Origin: Myxococcota bacterium
GTDB taxonomy: Bacteria > Myxococcota > XYA12-FULL-58-9 > JALHOP01
DNA: 64,000 nucleotides
Assembly (NCBI GenBank): GCA_022842935.1
Contig: JALHOP010000002.1
Location: forward strand, 124,001-188,000
Direction of reading: 5' to 3'
The notes under the pieces are model-generated. The model was not told where the DNA came from, did no database searches, and worked only from the letters and a program-made list of their open reading frames with translations. This document shows, piece after piece, positions 20,186 to 27,139 of the stretch. A program made the position numbers and the translations under genes. Every line of letters begins with the position of its first letter. The first letter of the stretch is position 1.

Positions 20186-23125
20186 ATGCGTAGGCCTGGT
20201 TTGTGGCGTGTCGTCGTATGCTCCGCATTGATCGGTGTATCCGCGATAGCGTGTGGTGACGAAGACGACAATCTTGGGGAAGACTTCAATCCGTATCCAA
20301 AGGAGCCGGTCGAAGAGCCAACGGTTCCCACGATCGACGAGCTACCCGCAGCCGAGACACTGAGCGCCGGCATGAGCGCCAACGTCAACGTGGTCATCGA
20401 CCGCCGTGGTATGCCGCACATCTACGCGGCGAACTTGCAGGACGCACTCCGCGCCCAGGGCTACATCATGGCGCGTGATCGCTTTCCTCAGATGGAGTTC
20501 ATTCGCCGGGCAGTCACCGGCACACTGACCGAGGCCGTGTCACCGGTCGCCGGCACCTCACTAACGCTCGAAGACGACATCCAGGCGCGCTTCTTCGGAT
20601 TCAAGCGCGTCGCGACGCAGGTGTACGACGGCCTCGACGACAACGATGTGGTCAAGACCTCGGTGGACGCGTTCACGGCGGGCGTCAACGAATGGATTGA
20701 CGAGATCCTGGCGGAGAAGGCCAAGGGCGCCTCGGCGAGCTTCACGCGCTTCGTGCCCCGTGGCGCTGGCTTGTTCAACGCGATCATCGCGAGCCCCTTC
20801 TTCGGCCACTGGGAGCCGACCGACGTCATGGCCATTGCGCGCTATCAAACGTTCGTGTTGTCGTTCGACCAAGCGGACGCGGATCGCAGCCGAGCATTGC
20901 AGGGGATTGGTGCCGGCTCGTTTGGTCCCTCAGCGCCCGAGCAACAGCTGGGCTTCGCAGCCCTGTTCGATATGGCCGCCCACGCCCCCAGCCGCGACGT
21001 CTACACGACGGACGCAGGCGGACCTGCGGAGCTCAGCGTTCACCCAGCGCGTGGCATCCCTGCCCCCGCCCTGACCGTGGCCTCGGGTAGCCCGAGCCCC
21101 ATGAAGGCTGGGCACCCGGCAGCGGCCTCTGCGGCGGCGCGCTTCGGCCAGCACGCCCGTCATCTCGCCCGCCTGCTGGGTGACGTCGACCGTGGCTCGA
21201 ACAACTGGGTGGTCTCTGGCGCGCACACCGCGAGTGGCGCCCCAATCCTCGCCAATGACCCGCACTTGTCGCTCACCAGTCCCGGTGTTTGGTACTACAC
21301 CCACATCACGGCGGCCGCCGAAGGCATCGACGCCGAAGGCGTGGCTTTTGCCGGCCTGCCGAGCGTCGTTCTTGGCTTCACCAAGGACCTCGCGTGGGGC
21401 GCCACTGTCACGAACTTCGATGTCGTCGACTTCTACGCCTTAGACAGCGCCCCGACGATCGATGGCGGCGGTGTGATGACGGTCGAGACGCTCGCCGGCG
21501 AGGTCACGGTTGGTCCTTCGGCGGTCGAGACGATTCGCGTCGGCCCCGCGGCTCCTGCGGGCAACGTCACCGTCCCCATCTATACCGTGGGCAATTTCGG
21601 ACAGGTCGTCTTCGAGGGTACCACGCCTCAACCCGTCACCGTCCGCACGATCAACTTCGACGCGTCGAACGAGCTCGGGTTCTTTTTGCGCTTGTTGACC
21701 GCCAGAACGATCACGGACGCTCGGGCTGCGCAGGCCACCTACTTCGAGGCCGGCTCGCAGAACTTCGTGATGATCGCGAAGAACGGCGACATCGCCTGGC
21801 AGACGTATTCGCGCGTCCCCGCGCGGCCGGATGTTGCGACGTCGTGGCCTGGCTCGCCAGCCACTCCGAATGACCCGTCGAGCCCTGCGACGACGGGCTG
21901 CCCGACGTTCGTGTTGCCTTCGGTGGCCGCGTTCACCTGGACCGGTGACCTCGAGCCGACCTCGCTTCCCTCGCTGCTCAACCCTGCGAAAGGTTGGATC
22001 GCAACGGCCAACCAGGACAGCATCGGCGTCAATCGCGACGGCAACCCTTGCAACGACAGCGTCTACCTGGGCGGCGACTACGATCCGGGGCACCGTCAGT
22101 ACCGCATCGCCGAACGACTGGACGCGCTCGTGACCCGAGGCGACATCACGGTCGCCGATATGCAAGCGCTGCAGGGCGAGTCGAAGTCGAGCCTTGGCGA
22201 GACCCTGCGCGGTCCGCTCGTCGCGGTGCTCGACGACATCATCGCAGACACCGACGATGTCGATCTTGCCGCCGACCTTGGCGAAGTGCGAGGTCGTCTC
22301 GTGGCCTGGAGTCTCGCGACTCCGGCTGGTGTAGACAGCACGGACCCGGCTGTCATCGCGGACAGCGTCGCGACGACGATTTTCAACGCGTGGATCACGC
22401 GGATCATCGCCATGGGCTTCGGGGACGAGGCAGCGCGGCTTGGCGTTCGCCCACCCGCAGCGGCGCTGCTCGAGCGCGCGATCACCTGCAGCGCCACCGA
22501 CGACAAGGGCCTCCTGACCTTCAACGACGGACTCGGTAGCACCATTCTGTGGGACGACATCGACACTGCCGGAACCCTCGAAACACGCGAGGACATTTTG
22601 CTGCAGTCGCTGCTCGACGCGGTCCAGTCGCTCGTCTCGCGCTTCGGCGAGAACCGCAGTCTGTGGGTCTGGGGCAAGCTCCACACGGTGAAGTTCCGAG
22701 CGCTCATCCCGCCGACCAGTCTCGACGTTCAGTCGATCCCGGCCGCCGACGATCCGCGCTACGCCAACGGCTTCCCGCGCCATTCGGACTGGGGCGCGGT
22801 CGACGTCGGCAACTACGATCTGTGGAATGCCTATGAGGCGACCGGCGCTAGTCCGCCCGGAGACCCCGTTGACGTCAAGGACAGCATCGACGTCCGAGAC
22901 TTCGCCTACGGCGGCAGTGGCCCGTCGCAGCGTCTCGTCGTCGAGATGCTGCCCGAAGGTCCCAAGGCGTACAACGCTCTCCCGGGTGGTCAGTCGATGT
23001 ACCCGGACAGCAAGCACCACCGCGACGAAGCGGCGCTCTGGCAAAAGAATCAGGCTCCGCAGCTCAACTTCACACCAGAAGAGGTGGCGGCGAACGCGGA
23101 GCGCAAGATCGTCCTGACGCCGTAA
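20186..23125 (+). CDS. Penicillin acylase family (S45) lipoprotein
   Basis: 979-residue Ntn-hydrolase precursor of the penicillin/acyl-homoserine-lactone acylase family, which cleaves amide bonds of acylated substrates. Signal VVVCSALIGVSAIAC with lipobox AIAC predicts a lipoprotein with the mature Cys at residue 23. The alpha domain carries GYIMARDRFPQMEFIRR; the autoprocessing site is GSNNW with the nucleophile Ser338, then the typical ANDPHL. A large non-standard insertion rich in Val/Thr separates the later beta-domain motifs. Shine-Dalgarno agggagg (20174-20180) supports the ATG. A strong terminator follows. Substrate (beta-lactam, N-acyl homoserine lactone or other) cannot be decided. 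Confidence 0.85.
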   Translation: MRRPGLWRVVVCSALIGVSAIACGDEDDNLGEDFNPYPKEPVEEPTVPTIDELPAAETLSAGMSANVNVVIDRRGMPHIYAANLQDALRAQGYIMARDRFPQMEFIRRAVTGTLTEAVSPVAGTSLTLEDDIQARFFGFKRVATQVYDGLDDNDVVKTSVDAFTAGVNEWIDEILAEKAKGASASFTRFVPRGAGLFNAIIASPFFGHWEPTDVMAIARYQTFVLSFDQADADRSRALQGIGAGSFGPSAPEQQLGFAALFDMAAHAPSRDVYTTDAGGPAELSVHPARGIPAPALTVASGSPSPMKAGHPAAASAAARFGQHARHLARLLGDVDRGSNNWVVSGAHTASGAPILANDPHLSLTSPGVWYYTHITAAAEGIDAEGVAFAGLPSVVLGFTKDLAWGATVTNFDVVDFYALDSAPTIDGGGVMTVETLAGEVTVGPSAVETIRVGPAAPAGNVTVPIYTVGNFGQVVFEGTTPQPVTVRTINFDASNELGFFLRLLTARTITDARAAQATYFEAGSQNFVMIAKNGDIAWQTYSRVPARPDVATSWPGSPATPNDPSSPATTGCPTFVLPSVAAFTWTGDLEPTSLPSLLNPAKGWIATANQDSIGVNRDGNPCNDSVYLGGDYDPGHRQYRIAERLDALVTRGDITVADMQALQGESKSSLGETLRGPLVAVLDDIIADTDDVDLAADLGEVRGRLVAWSLATPAGVDSTDPAVIADSVATTIFNAWITRIIAMGFGDEAARLGVRPPAAALLERAITCSATDDKGLLTFNDGLGSTILWDDIDTAGTLETREDILLQSLLDAVQSLVSRFGENRSLWVWGKLHTVKFRALIPPTSLDVQSIPAADDPRYANGFPRHSDWGAVDVGNYDLWNAYEATGASPPGDPVDVKDSIDVRDFAYGGSGPSQRLVVEMLPEGPKAYNALPGGQSMYPDSKHHRDEAALWQKNQAPQLNFTPEEVAANAERKIVLTP

Positions 23126-23148
23126 GCCAGCGTCAAACCTGCACGACG

Positions 23149-23188
23149 AAGCCCTGCCGGTGATCCGTGAGATTCCGGCAGGGCTTTT
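23149..23188 (+). terminator. Rho-independent terminator after the acylase
   Basis: A perfect 12-bp stem (aagccctgccgg at 23149-23160, ccggcagggctt at 23175-23186) with a 14-nt loop, ending in a short T-run (ctttt). It begins 23 bp after the acylase stop. Confidence 0.88.
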
Positions 23189-23305
23189 CGTTGTCGACAG
23201 ACGACGCTGCCCCCTTCCGAAGCGCAGAAGACGTGGCCTTTCTAACCACCCGGGCCACCGCACCTCTTGAGCGGGCGCCGCAGATGCTGGAATCGTACGC
23301 GCCAT

Positions 23306-24436
23306 ATGACCGTCATCCCCGTCACGCCTGCAGCCGGCAGCCTCGCGCGCGTACCGCGCACCCTCTGGGTGCTCGCCTCGCCACGGCAAACCTTCGCCGA
23401 GCTCGCCGAAGGCGAGGGCAAAGCGCCGCGCGGCTACGGACTCATGTTTCTCTGGCTGCTCATCGAGCTCGTGCTGGGCGCCCCCGGCCTTGCGGCGAGC
23501 ATCGGCAGTGAGCTGTCGCGGGAGCCGGTCCATGGGCTCACCCACCTGTACACGGCGTACATCCGCCACGTGGCGCTTCCGGCCGTCGCCATGTTCGCGG
23601 TCGGGCTCTCGATCTACTACGTTCTGCGTGCCAAGAAGGCGCGGCGCGATCTCTGGGCGTGCGTGAGCATCGTCAGTTACGCCTGGGTGCCGCACCTCGT
23701 GCTCGTCGCGGTCGGCGCCGTACTGACTGTTTTCAACATCGACCACCCACTGCCTGCGCCGCACCTGCGGACCATCGTCACTGACGGTAGCGCTCGCCAG
23801 CTCCTCACCGCTCTAATCGAAATCGGCCCCGTCGCTCTCTTCGTGTACCTCGCGACGCGTGCTTTGGTGCGTGGTCAAGCCCCGTTGCCCATCACGAGCA
23901 GCGATCGCTCACGCACCTGGGTCGTGGCGCTGCTCTTTGCAGCGCTCATGGTCACCAGCGCCGCGGCAGCGACGCGCACGGTGCGCGACCGCTGGGACAC
24001 GTTTCGGCCGGTCGAGATTGGCGAGTCTGTCCCAACGCTTGCGCTCCTCGACGCCGACGGCAAGCCCGCCAAATCGCCAACCTTCGTGGGCAAGGTTAGC
24101 ATCATCGACTTCTGGGCCACCTGGTGTGGGCCGTGCGTGACCTCGCTGCCGATGCTCGAGCGCACCGCACGCAGCTTCGAGGAGCGCGGCGTGCAGCTCG
24201 TCTCGCTCAATACCGAGCCCGAGAACCTGGCTGCAGTGCGAGCATTCCGCGTCGAGCACCGGCTCGCATCGACCGTGTACGTGGACACCGGCTCAGCTGG
24301 AGAACGATTGCACGTGACCGTGCTGCCGACCACGTTCATCGTCGACAAGCGGGGCGTGCTCCGCTACCGCCACGTCGGTGTTGTCCCCGAAGCGGTGCTC
24401 GGGCAAGAGATTGCCGACCTCGTGAACGAGCCCTAA
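23306..24436 (+). CDS. Yip1-like membrane domain fused to TlpA/ResA-type thioredoxin
   Basis: 376-residue membrane-anchored thiol-disulfide protein. Residues about 10-220 contain five or six hydrophobic segments (LMFLWLLIELVLGAPGLAAS, AVAMFAVGLSIYYVL and others) resembling a Yip1-type integral domain; a last helix (VVALLFAALMVTSAAAA) leads to a periplasmic thioredoxin domain with the redox motif WATWCGPC near residue 274 and the cis-Pro motif VLPTTFIVD. It probably reduces or oxidises exported proteins, as TlpA/ResA do. ATG 23306 is chosen; no strong ribosome-binding site is visible. Its last 144 bp overlap hflX on the other strand. Confidence 0.75.
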   Translation: MTVIPVTPAAGSLARVPRTLWVLASPRQTFAELAEGEGKAPRGYGLMFLWLLIELVLGAPGLAASIGSELSREPVHGLTHLYTAYIRHVALPAVAMFAVGLSIYYVLRAKKARRDLWACVSIVSYAWVPHLVLVAVGAVLTVFNIDHPLPAPHLRTIVTDGSARQLLTALIEIGPVALFVYLATRALVRGQAPLPITSSDRSRTWVVALLFAALMVTSAAAATRTVRDRWDTFRPVEIGESVPTLALLDADGKPAKSPTFVGKVSIIDFWATWCGPCVTSLPMLERTARSFEERGVQLVSLNTEPENLAAVRAFRVEHRLASTVYVDTGSAGERLHVTVLPTTFIVDKRGVLRYRHVGVVPEAVLGQEIADLVNEP

Positions 24437-26158
24437 GGCATCTCTGATGCGCGCGAGCAGCTTGTCGGCGCCATTGCCCGTTATGGCGGATACAGCAACC
24501 CCGTCATGTTTGCGCGCCAAGGCTTGCGCCTCGAAGCCCTCGACCTGATCGGACTTGTTGAAGACGACAACGCTGGGTATGCCGCCAAGCTCGAGCGACT
24601 GGAGCAGGCCTTCAACAGCCGCCATCTTCTCGTTGCGCATCGGATCGGACACATCGACGACGTGTAACAAGAGGTCCGCTCCCTCGAGCTCTTCGAGCGT
24701 CGCGCGGAACGCCTTCATGAGGTCTTCGGGAAGCTCGCGGATAAAGCCAACAGTGTCGGTAATGACGGCCTCGGACGCGGGCGCACCATCACGTCCGCCC
24801 AAGCGGAGCTTGCGGCTGGCTGGGTCGAGAGTGGCAAACAGCTGGTCGGCGACGAGCACAGAGCTTTCGGTGAGGCGATTCAAGAGCGTCGATTTGCCCG
24901 CGTTGGTGTAGCCGACGATCGAGACGATCGGCACGTGGCTCCGCTGACGCTGCGCTCTGCGGAGCTGACGTTGTTGTGAAAGCTTCTCGATCTCGTGCTC
25001 GAGCCGGGTGATACGGTCACGCGCTCTACGGCGATTGATCTCGAGCTTGGTCTCGCCCGGGCCACGGCCACCGATGCCGCCGGTGAGACGTGAGAGGCCG
25101 GCGTCGAGATCAGTGAGCCGGGGCAAATTGTACTTGAGCTGAGCCAGCTCGACCTGGAGCTTGCCGTCGCGGCTCTGCGCGTGTTGCGCAAAAATATCGA
25201 GGATGAGCTGGGTGCGATCGATGACCTTGAGGTCGGTGGCCGCGGCGATTCCACGGGCCTGTGCAGGCGACATGTCGTGATCGAAAACCACGAGCTCGGC
25301 GCCGACGTCGAGGCAACGCAAGGTCACCTCTTCGAGCTTGCCCTTACCGACGACGTATTTGCCGTCGACCTGTTTGCGCAGCTGCACCATCTCGTCGGCG
25401 ATGACGACGCCGGCGGTCGTGGCGAGCTCCCGCAGCTCGCTCATCCGCCACTCACCGTCGTATTTGCTCGCGTAGACCCCGACCAGCACGGCACGCAGGC
25501 GACGATCGCTCGCGTCGCGACCGGCACTGACATGACGCGCGAGCTCGGCCTCGAGGGCGGCGACGAGAGCGCCGAAGTCGAGCTCGACCTCGAACACCGA
25601 TGGCGCGCGCTCGGTCTTGTGTTTTTCGCTATCGCGGACACCGGGCGCCGGATACGCATAAGACAGGGCGCCCGGACGGCCTTCTTCGTCGACACGAAAG
25701 GCGGCCACCGCGTCGAGGCGCAGCTTGGTCAAGTCGGTGTAGTCGTCGCGGGTGAGCGCGCCGTCATCGAGCACGGTGTGGACGTGGCGAAGGCCTCGAA
25801 GGTGGCCGCCACCACCACGCTGACGACCGATATCGGGAAGATAGACGCGCTTACTGTCACCGACGAAACACTCTTCGACCTGGCCGCGCCGGTTGATGAG
25901 GACGCCCACCTGGCGACCGATGTCGCGTGAGATCCAGGCGAGGTGTTTCGCGAGCTCTGGGCTAACTAACTGGTCGACAGGAACGCGGCGCTGAAAGGTG
26001 CGTTCGAGGGCCTTTTTTTGGCTGGGTTTGAGGCCTGCTGTATTGCCAGTGACGTTCGTGATGCGAGAGCTCCTCGCAGCTCGAGGCTGCGGCGCCGCCG
26101 CTGTTCGGGCAGGCAGCGAATACACGCTTAGAATACGCCCTGAAATCGGCGTCGACAA
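24293..26158 (-). CDS. hflX: GTPase HflX
   Basis: 621-residue ribosome-associated GTPase implicated in stalled or heat-damaged ribosome rescue. The HflX N-terminal domain shows [14 protein letters not shown] and the G domain has G1 GYTNAGKST (about residue 412), G3 [10 protein letters not shown] and G4 NKSD. It is longer than the roughly 430-residue E. coli protein: about 190 extra N-terminal residues, common in some lineages, and about 46 C-terminal residues that are purely antisense to the tlpA-like gene. No ATG is available; TTG 26158 has AGGCGG close upstream, and GTG 26125 is an alternative. It is divergent from gshB with only 45 bp between starts. Confidence 0.92.
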
Positions 26159-26203
26159 GCCGCCTATGGCGTTCCCGCATGCAAGCCCTTAACCTCTGCA
26201 ACC

Positions 26204-27139
26204 ATGCAACGCACCGTCGCTTTTGTGATGGATCCGCTCGAGCGCATCCACCCCGCCGCCGACACCAGCTTCGCTCTCATGCTCGAGGCCCAGGCACGGG
26301 GCTTTCGGATCATGCATGTCGCCCCCAAGGCTCTTTCCCTGGCGGGGAGCGCCCTGACCCTCGCGGGGCATGACGTCCAGGTCGCAGACACCGCCGTCGA
26401 CTACTTCAACGTGCAGTCGGCCCTTCGCCTAGGCGCCAGCGACTGCGCCGCCATCTTCATTCGAACCGATCCGCCGTTCGACGAGCACTATCTGATGGCG
26501 ACCTGGCTGCTATCGTTCGCCGAGGAGGCCGGCGTTCGCGTCATCAACAGCCCGCGCGGCATCCGCAGCGCCAACGAGAAGCTCTATGCTCTCAACTTCG
26601 CCGACGTCTGCCCCGATACCATCATCACGACCAGTCGCGACGATGTGAAACGCTTTCTTGCGGAACACGGCGGCCAAGCGATCGCCAAACCCCTCGACGG
26701 TCACGGTGGCTTCGGCGTCATGCGCCTCTCGGTTGGCGACTCCAACGTGAACGCGATCGTGGATACTCTGTCCGTCGAGGGGAAGAAGCCCATTCTCGTG
26801 CAAGCGTACCTCCCCGAGGGTGCCGATGGGGACAAGCGCTTGTTCATGCTCGACGGCAAGCTTGCGGCCGCGCTGCAACGGGTGCCCCCAGCGGGCGATC
26901 ATCGCGGCAATGTCCACGTTGGCGGCACGGTGAGGACTGCCGAGATCGGCGACGCCGAACGCACGATCGCCGAGCGCCTGGGCCCGCGGCTCAAGGCCGA
27001 CGGCATCTACTTCGCGGGCCTCGACATCATTGGCAGCAAACTCATCGAGGTGAACGTCACGAGCCCAACGCTTACTCGCGAGCTCAAGCGTCTGGGCGGT
27101 GCCGATATCCCCAAGTTGATCTTCGATAGCCTGCGCTAA
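26204..27139 (+). CDS. gshB: Glutathione synthetase
   Basis: 311-residue ATP-grasp enzyme that joins gamma-glutamylcysteine and glycine to make glutathione. The N-terminus VAFVMDPLERIHPAADTSFALMLEAQARG (partly quoted: MDPLERIHPAADTSFAL) is the family hallmark, followed by FIRTDPPFDEHYL, the substrate and ATP-binding KPLDGHGGFGV near residue 163, and the C-terminal EVNVTSPT metal-binding segment. The length equals that of E. coli GshB (about 316). TAACCT lies 8-14 nt before the ATG and could be a -10 element for a near-leaderless message. gshA is not in the window. Confidence 0.95.
   Translation: MQRTVAFVMDPLERIHPAADTSFALMLEAQARGFRIMHVAPKALSLAGSALTLAGHDVQVADTAVDYFNVQSALRLGASDCAAIFIRTDPPFDEHYLMATWLLSFAEEAGVRVINSPRGIRSANEKLYALNFADVCPDTIITTSRDDVKRFLAEHGGQAIAKPLDGHGGFGVMRLSVGDSNVNAIVDTLSVEGKKPILVQAYLPEGADGDKRLFMLDGKLAAALQRVPPAGDHRGNVHVGGTVRTAEIGDAERTIAERLGPRLKADGIYFAGLDIIGSKLIEVNVTSPTLTRELKRLGGADIPKLIFDSLR

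Follow-up and report, generated by a model that had tools for sequence, protein, structure and literature searches.

The genes hflX and tlpA-like lie tail to tail in the window, the stretch of 64,000 nucleotides of a Myxococcota genome analysed here, and by their open reading frame coordinates they share 144 bp (24293..24436), tlpA-like being read from the plus strand and hflX from the minus strand. The overlap is very likely due to a 3' extension of hflX into the antisense strand of its convergent neighbor, specific to this lineage and probably neutral. The tlpA-like side of the shared stretch consists of TCA, 46 codons, and TAA, and the HflX side comprises 47 residues (575-621) followed by TGA (Table 1). 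The conserved portion of HflX ends exactly at Leu-575, where the alignment with relatives stops, and this residue is invariant across 10 aligned HflX proteins. The original prediction, made from the sequence alone, had described a 144-bp head-on overlap with HflX continuing 46 codons past the TAA of the tlpA-like gene, and the open reading frame translations show these coordinates to be exact. It had further placed the overlap over the end of a C-terminal CxxC domain, which holds for the final 46 residues of the thioredoxin-like domain but not for the CxxC motif itself (WCGPC), located upstream and outside the overlap. By the geometry alone, the mRNAs of the two genes would be complementary across the overlap. 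The assembly to which the window belongs (6.28 Mb in 46 contigs, 97.43% complete and 2.89% contaminated) contains the sequence as a single, identical match.

Table 1. Features of the hflX/tlpA-like junction and its surroundings, in window positions
Feature	Position	Strand	Details
tlpA/resA-like gene	23267..24436	+	389 aa from first possible TTG; ATG 23306; stop TAA 24434-24436
hflX, long-type GTPase HflX	26158..24293	-	621 codons from first possible TTG, plus TGA at 24295..24293
Overlap	24293..24436	both	144 bp, codon opposite codon, phase 123:321
tlpA-like stop TAA (+) and HflX Leu575 codon TTA (-)	24434..24436	both	complementary codons
HflX stop TGA (-) and TlpA Ser codon TCA (+)	24293..24295	both	complementary codons
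HflX residues 576-621, antisense-captured tail	24296..24433	-	translation, predicted disordered
gshB, glutathione synthase	26204..27139	+	TIGR01380 331.8 bits, NF003573 335.1 bits; divergent from hflX

Both genes are real, as judged from family matches and from orthologues in relatives. HflX residues 222-574 match positions 1-350 of the 351 in the TIGR03156 equivalog model with 435.4 bits (cut-off 216.75), which assigns the protein to the HflX family over the full model length, and the N-terminal, middle, and G domains are all above their family cut-offs (PF13167, PF16360, and PF01926 in Pfam). By family match, the GTPase and ribosome-binding domains thus appear intact. The length of 621 residues is counted from the first possible start, a putative TTG. 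The tail (residues 576-621) is covered by no family model in the Pfam and TIGR03156/NCBIfam profile searches. Compared with the HflX GTPases described by TIGR03156, the domains are matched, but the Leu-Trp/Phe pair and the residues that follow it in relatives are lost and 46 captured residues stand in the window protein. In the best PDB match, to E. coli HflX, the matched part stops at chain residue 361 of 426, leaving 65 E. coli residues beyond, and the E. coli-type C-terminal domain is absent from the window protein, as it is from close relatives. In the region preceding the TIGR03156 part, residues at about 33-220 (25500-26060) are conserved in deltaproteobacterial-type relatives and match no Pfam family at E 0.001. 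A second HflX of 490 amino acids is encoded elsewhere in the genome (L200:1213-2685, TIGR03156 345 bits) and carries an acidic-residue insert between its N-terminal and middle parts.

The tlpA-like protein has a Redoxin/AhpC-TSA match above cut-off at residues 251-375 and belongs with the TlpA/ResA-like proteins by its thioredoxin-like domain with the WCGPC motif. As no NCBIfam equivalog is matched above its cut-off, the name cannot be taken further than "tlpA-like". The membrane part shows a marginal Yip1 match over residues 35-230 (28.8 against 28.6 bits), a match that is absent in the two tlpA-like relatives tested (E 0.001). Relatives in the order align with the protein over most of its length, and the alignment with five of them, from five genomes of the order, extends to a few residues short of the C terminus, which marks the tlpA-like gene as the partner of normal 3' length. 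As the tlpA-like protein is conserved to near its C terminus and HflX only to residue 575, the tlpA-like frame is the ancestral one here and the HflX tail the newcomer.

The HflX tail was compared with those at 53 loci, 29 from the search of relatives and 24 (L032-L055) of the 80 loci from a contig scan, the latter picked because nearly all match long-type HflX from the N-terminal part; the 56 loci with shorter-type HflX (L056-L111) were set aside. One locus on a contig without a stop (L006) was left out, giving 52 rows, with L032 and L004 covering one and the same record stretch. Past residue 573 the orthologues carry a median of 19.5 residues and at most 70 in these 52 rows, and the window protein carries 48, a length of at least which is reached in two of the rows; hflX is therefore the gene that is longer at its 3' end than its orthologues. 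The orthologue tails start with Leu-Trp/Phe in 42 of 52 rows, including all 28 from the 58-genome search, and the window protein has Leu-Gly in this place (the third residue past 573 is Gly). Six rows, all distant at 44-47% identity, end within three residues of the Asp-Ala-Leu position. Local alignment of the window tail with those 45 tails of relatives that exceed 10 residues gives a best score of 26, which 141 of 200 shuffled sequences reach.

These comparisons bear out the claim of the original prediction that HflX has acquired a new, lineage-specific tail from the tlpA antisense strand, as the tail is unlike that of any relative in the orthologue alignment. An independently conserved tail in relatives, named at the outset as the pattern that would speak against this, is not found; the relatives' tails are variable, mostly start with Leu-Trp/Phe, and differ from that of the window. 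A stop directly after the Asp-Ala-Leu position, the second such pattern, occurs in the six distant rows. A relationship of the tail to known HflX tails or to the E. coli C-terminal domain was also considered and finds no support in sequence, family models, or PDB matches.

Most probably the tail is without structure and dispensable. Its pLDDT is below 50 over residues 582-621 in AlphaFold predictions of 10 HflX sequences, a value that says little because no relatives aligned over the tail, and the relatives' tails, the family models, and the fold prediction give no evidence of a tail function, nor is antisense regulation evidenced. That the tail is instead a functional, overprinted C-terminal element replacing the short tail of relatives is highly improbable. 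HflX C-terminal parts do vary and can matter: E. coli HflX truncated at residue 372 keeps GTP hydrolysis and is reduced in ribosome splitting, according to one report (PMC4770234), and the 65 E. coli residues past the matched part lie at a site where HflX proteins bear extra domains. The E. coli-type C-terminal domain is not required for the family, and Sulfolobus HflX is described as lacking it (PMC4770234). Against a functional tail, the window tail has no similarity to the tails of relatives, lies outside the HflX family model, and has no confident fold. In six of the 52 orthologue rows the protein stops here with no tail at all, and the genome holds the second HflX (L200). Were the tail functional, a ribosome-rescue GTPase and a thiol oxidoreductase would be tied together in their sequence evolution.

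The probable 3' extension of hflX can be accounted for by a short series of steps. In the ancestral state the two genes would have been convergent (tlpA > < hflX) with their stops close together, and a small deletion, an indel, or a stop-changing mutation would then have removed the old HflX end in this lineage. The last conserved Leu codon of HflX would thereby have come to coincide with the tlpA stop, TTA opposite TAA, and HflX would run for 46 codons along the tlpA antisense strand to the first TCA, the codons TTA, CTA, and TCA being rare in a GC-rich genome; an HflX protein bearing this tail would be the product. The prediction had proposed stop-codon loss with capture of antisense sequence, of which the capture is supported and stop loss alone is not. 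Because HflX here lacks the Leu-Trp/Phe pair with the residues that follow, and because the tlpA stop falls on its last conserved codon, a deletion or indel is no less likely than stop loss alone, and mere loss of the stop behind an HflX end that is normal in other respects is not preferred. An event of this sort at the junction, deletion or indel, would be the simplest account, as suggested by comparison with distant relatives (67% identity or less).

An indel of a different origin, namely an assembly or sequence error near 24437-24450 that hides the real hflX end, is very unlikely. The neighboring minus-strand frame stops at a TAG (24435..24433), which would give a 3-4-bp overlap of the usual kind, and this stop lies exactly at the tlpA stop with zero open codons beyond; in Pallejà et al. 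(PMC2478687) most long convergent overlaps are ascribed to 3' extension by frameshift or stop change, sequencing errors included. HflX nevertheless aligns in the frame as given as far as residue 575, the bases at 24437-24450 include no homopolymer of four or more, and the alternative hflX end would likewise be without the Leu-Trp/Phe and tail of relatives.

The length of the overlap is that expected from codon usage. In the register of the overlap, antisense stops arise only opposite TTA, CTA, and TCA, which make up 0.123, 0.419, and 0.354% of the codons of the genome (0.895% together), and the TCA at the HflX stop is the first of the three encountered upstream of the TlpA stop. At least 46 codons free of TTA, CTA, and TCA precede the stop in 608 of 959 called genes, with a median of 73. 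The in-register antisense runs of tlpA relatives that have no overlap with hflX are 364 codons in G004, 88 in G007, 46 in G006, and 17 in G001, genomes of the same order, and that of the G002 tlpA gene is 12 codons. A run of 46 matches the codon-usage expectation, and the length therefore reflects the codon usage of tlpA and not selection for a tail; the overlap length is unremarkable once the HflX stop is gone. The smallest codon-usage margin of the tail is 1.1, and 132 of 959 real gene ends have margins no higher; the accepted HflX codons just before the tail score worse (-3.5) in the same test. Because in-register antisense looks gene-like here, codon usage does not tell the tail from a genuine gene end.

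The order contains eight genomes including this one, and the other seven belong to other families and genera. In G002, from another family, tlpA(+), hflX(-), and gshB(+) occur in the same order and orientation, and the convergent overlap of tlpA and hflX is 11 bp in a different register. The two genes are convergent and about 4.6 kb apart in G004, and in G001 they lie on one strand, flanking gshB on either side. The recurring neighbors may hint at a link between thiol chemistry and HflX. In G006, hflX overlaps an opposite open reading frame of 202 amino acids by 7 bp; this frame has no Pfam match and may not be a gene. From these gene orders, tlpA and hflX as neighbors are old in the order or have recurred in it, whereas this does not hold for the long overlap. 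The tlpA-like gene is preceded, in the same orientation, by a gene for a penicillin amidase-family protein (20186-23125, 979 aa, PF01804 447 bits), which has no counterpart in place in the seven neighborhood stretches compared.

The complementary 3' ends raise the alternative of a reciprocal antisense switch between tlpA and hflX, resembling an excludon, which is very improbable. A scan of 23100-26400 on both strands finds no terminator-like sites, compared with 2.0 in shuffled sequences, so that read-through transcripts would be possible, and excludons are described among convergent genes that have no terminator (PMC7154746). The geometry here would likewise give complementary 3' ends. The missing simple terminator is weak evidence in a GC-rich genome, however, and overlapping transcripts do not need overlapping reading frames; in this respect the junction differs from the excludon as outlined in that source (PMC7154746), since the reading frames themselves overlap. 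The length also fails to be conserved, with 11 bp in G002, a separation of about 4.6 kb in G004, and a single strand in G001.

Convergent genes overlap elsewhere in the genome as well. A survey of 1.197 Mb, comprising the whole of contig C2 and 540 kb of C1 with genes called by a crude codon-usage gene finder, gives 24 overlapping pairs among 170 convergent pairs, of which 13 overlap by at least 20 bp, six by at least 50 bp, and three by at least 100 bp. The three longest measure 144 bp (hflX/tlpA-like), 126 bp, and 119 bp, and the hflX/tlpA-like overlap is the end of a series, the longest of 170. The 126-bp overlap (L150:3497-3622) joins genes for an MFS transporter and a UPF0004-kind radical-SAM protein, and the 119-bp overlap (L150:15613-15731) those for an apolipoprotein N-acyltransferase (Lnt-like) and TruB; both lie in the same contig.

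Similar overlaps are also on record in other genomes. In Pallejà et al. 2008 (PMC2478687), 3' extensions account for 124 of 178 convergent overlaps longer than 60 bp, and the other 54 may be real. The hflX/tlpA-like pair is the same in kind as category iii of that work (3' extension, PMC2478687), being likewise convergent, longer than 60 bp, and composed of one gene longer at the 3' end and a partner of normal length; the particulars are the 144 bp and a conserved end that falls exactly on the stop of the partner. The commonest source of convergent overlaps is given as stop-codon mutation in a second study (PMC2174442), in table 3 of which phase 123:321 accounts for 33% of 1218 convergent overlaps longer than 4 bp. 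Codon lies opposite codon in the present case too, and no difference from that class is found (PMC2174442). A literature search, with subscription journals mostly outside its reach, found no paper on hflX as a convergent, overlapping gene.

The hflX/tlpA-like junction is a clean example of how cheaply long convergent overlaps can arise in a GC-rich genome. Where codon faces codon, antisense stops depend on TTA, CTA, and TCA, which are rare, and a gene that loses its end then acquires a tail dozens of residues long. For annotators it carries the caution that such tails are to be expected and should not be taken as new domains without comparison.
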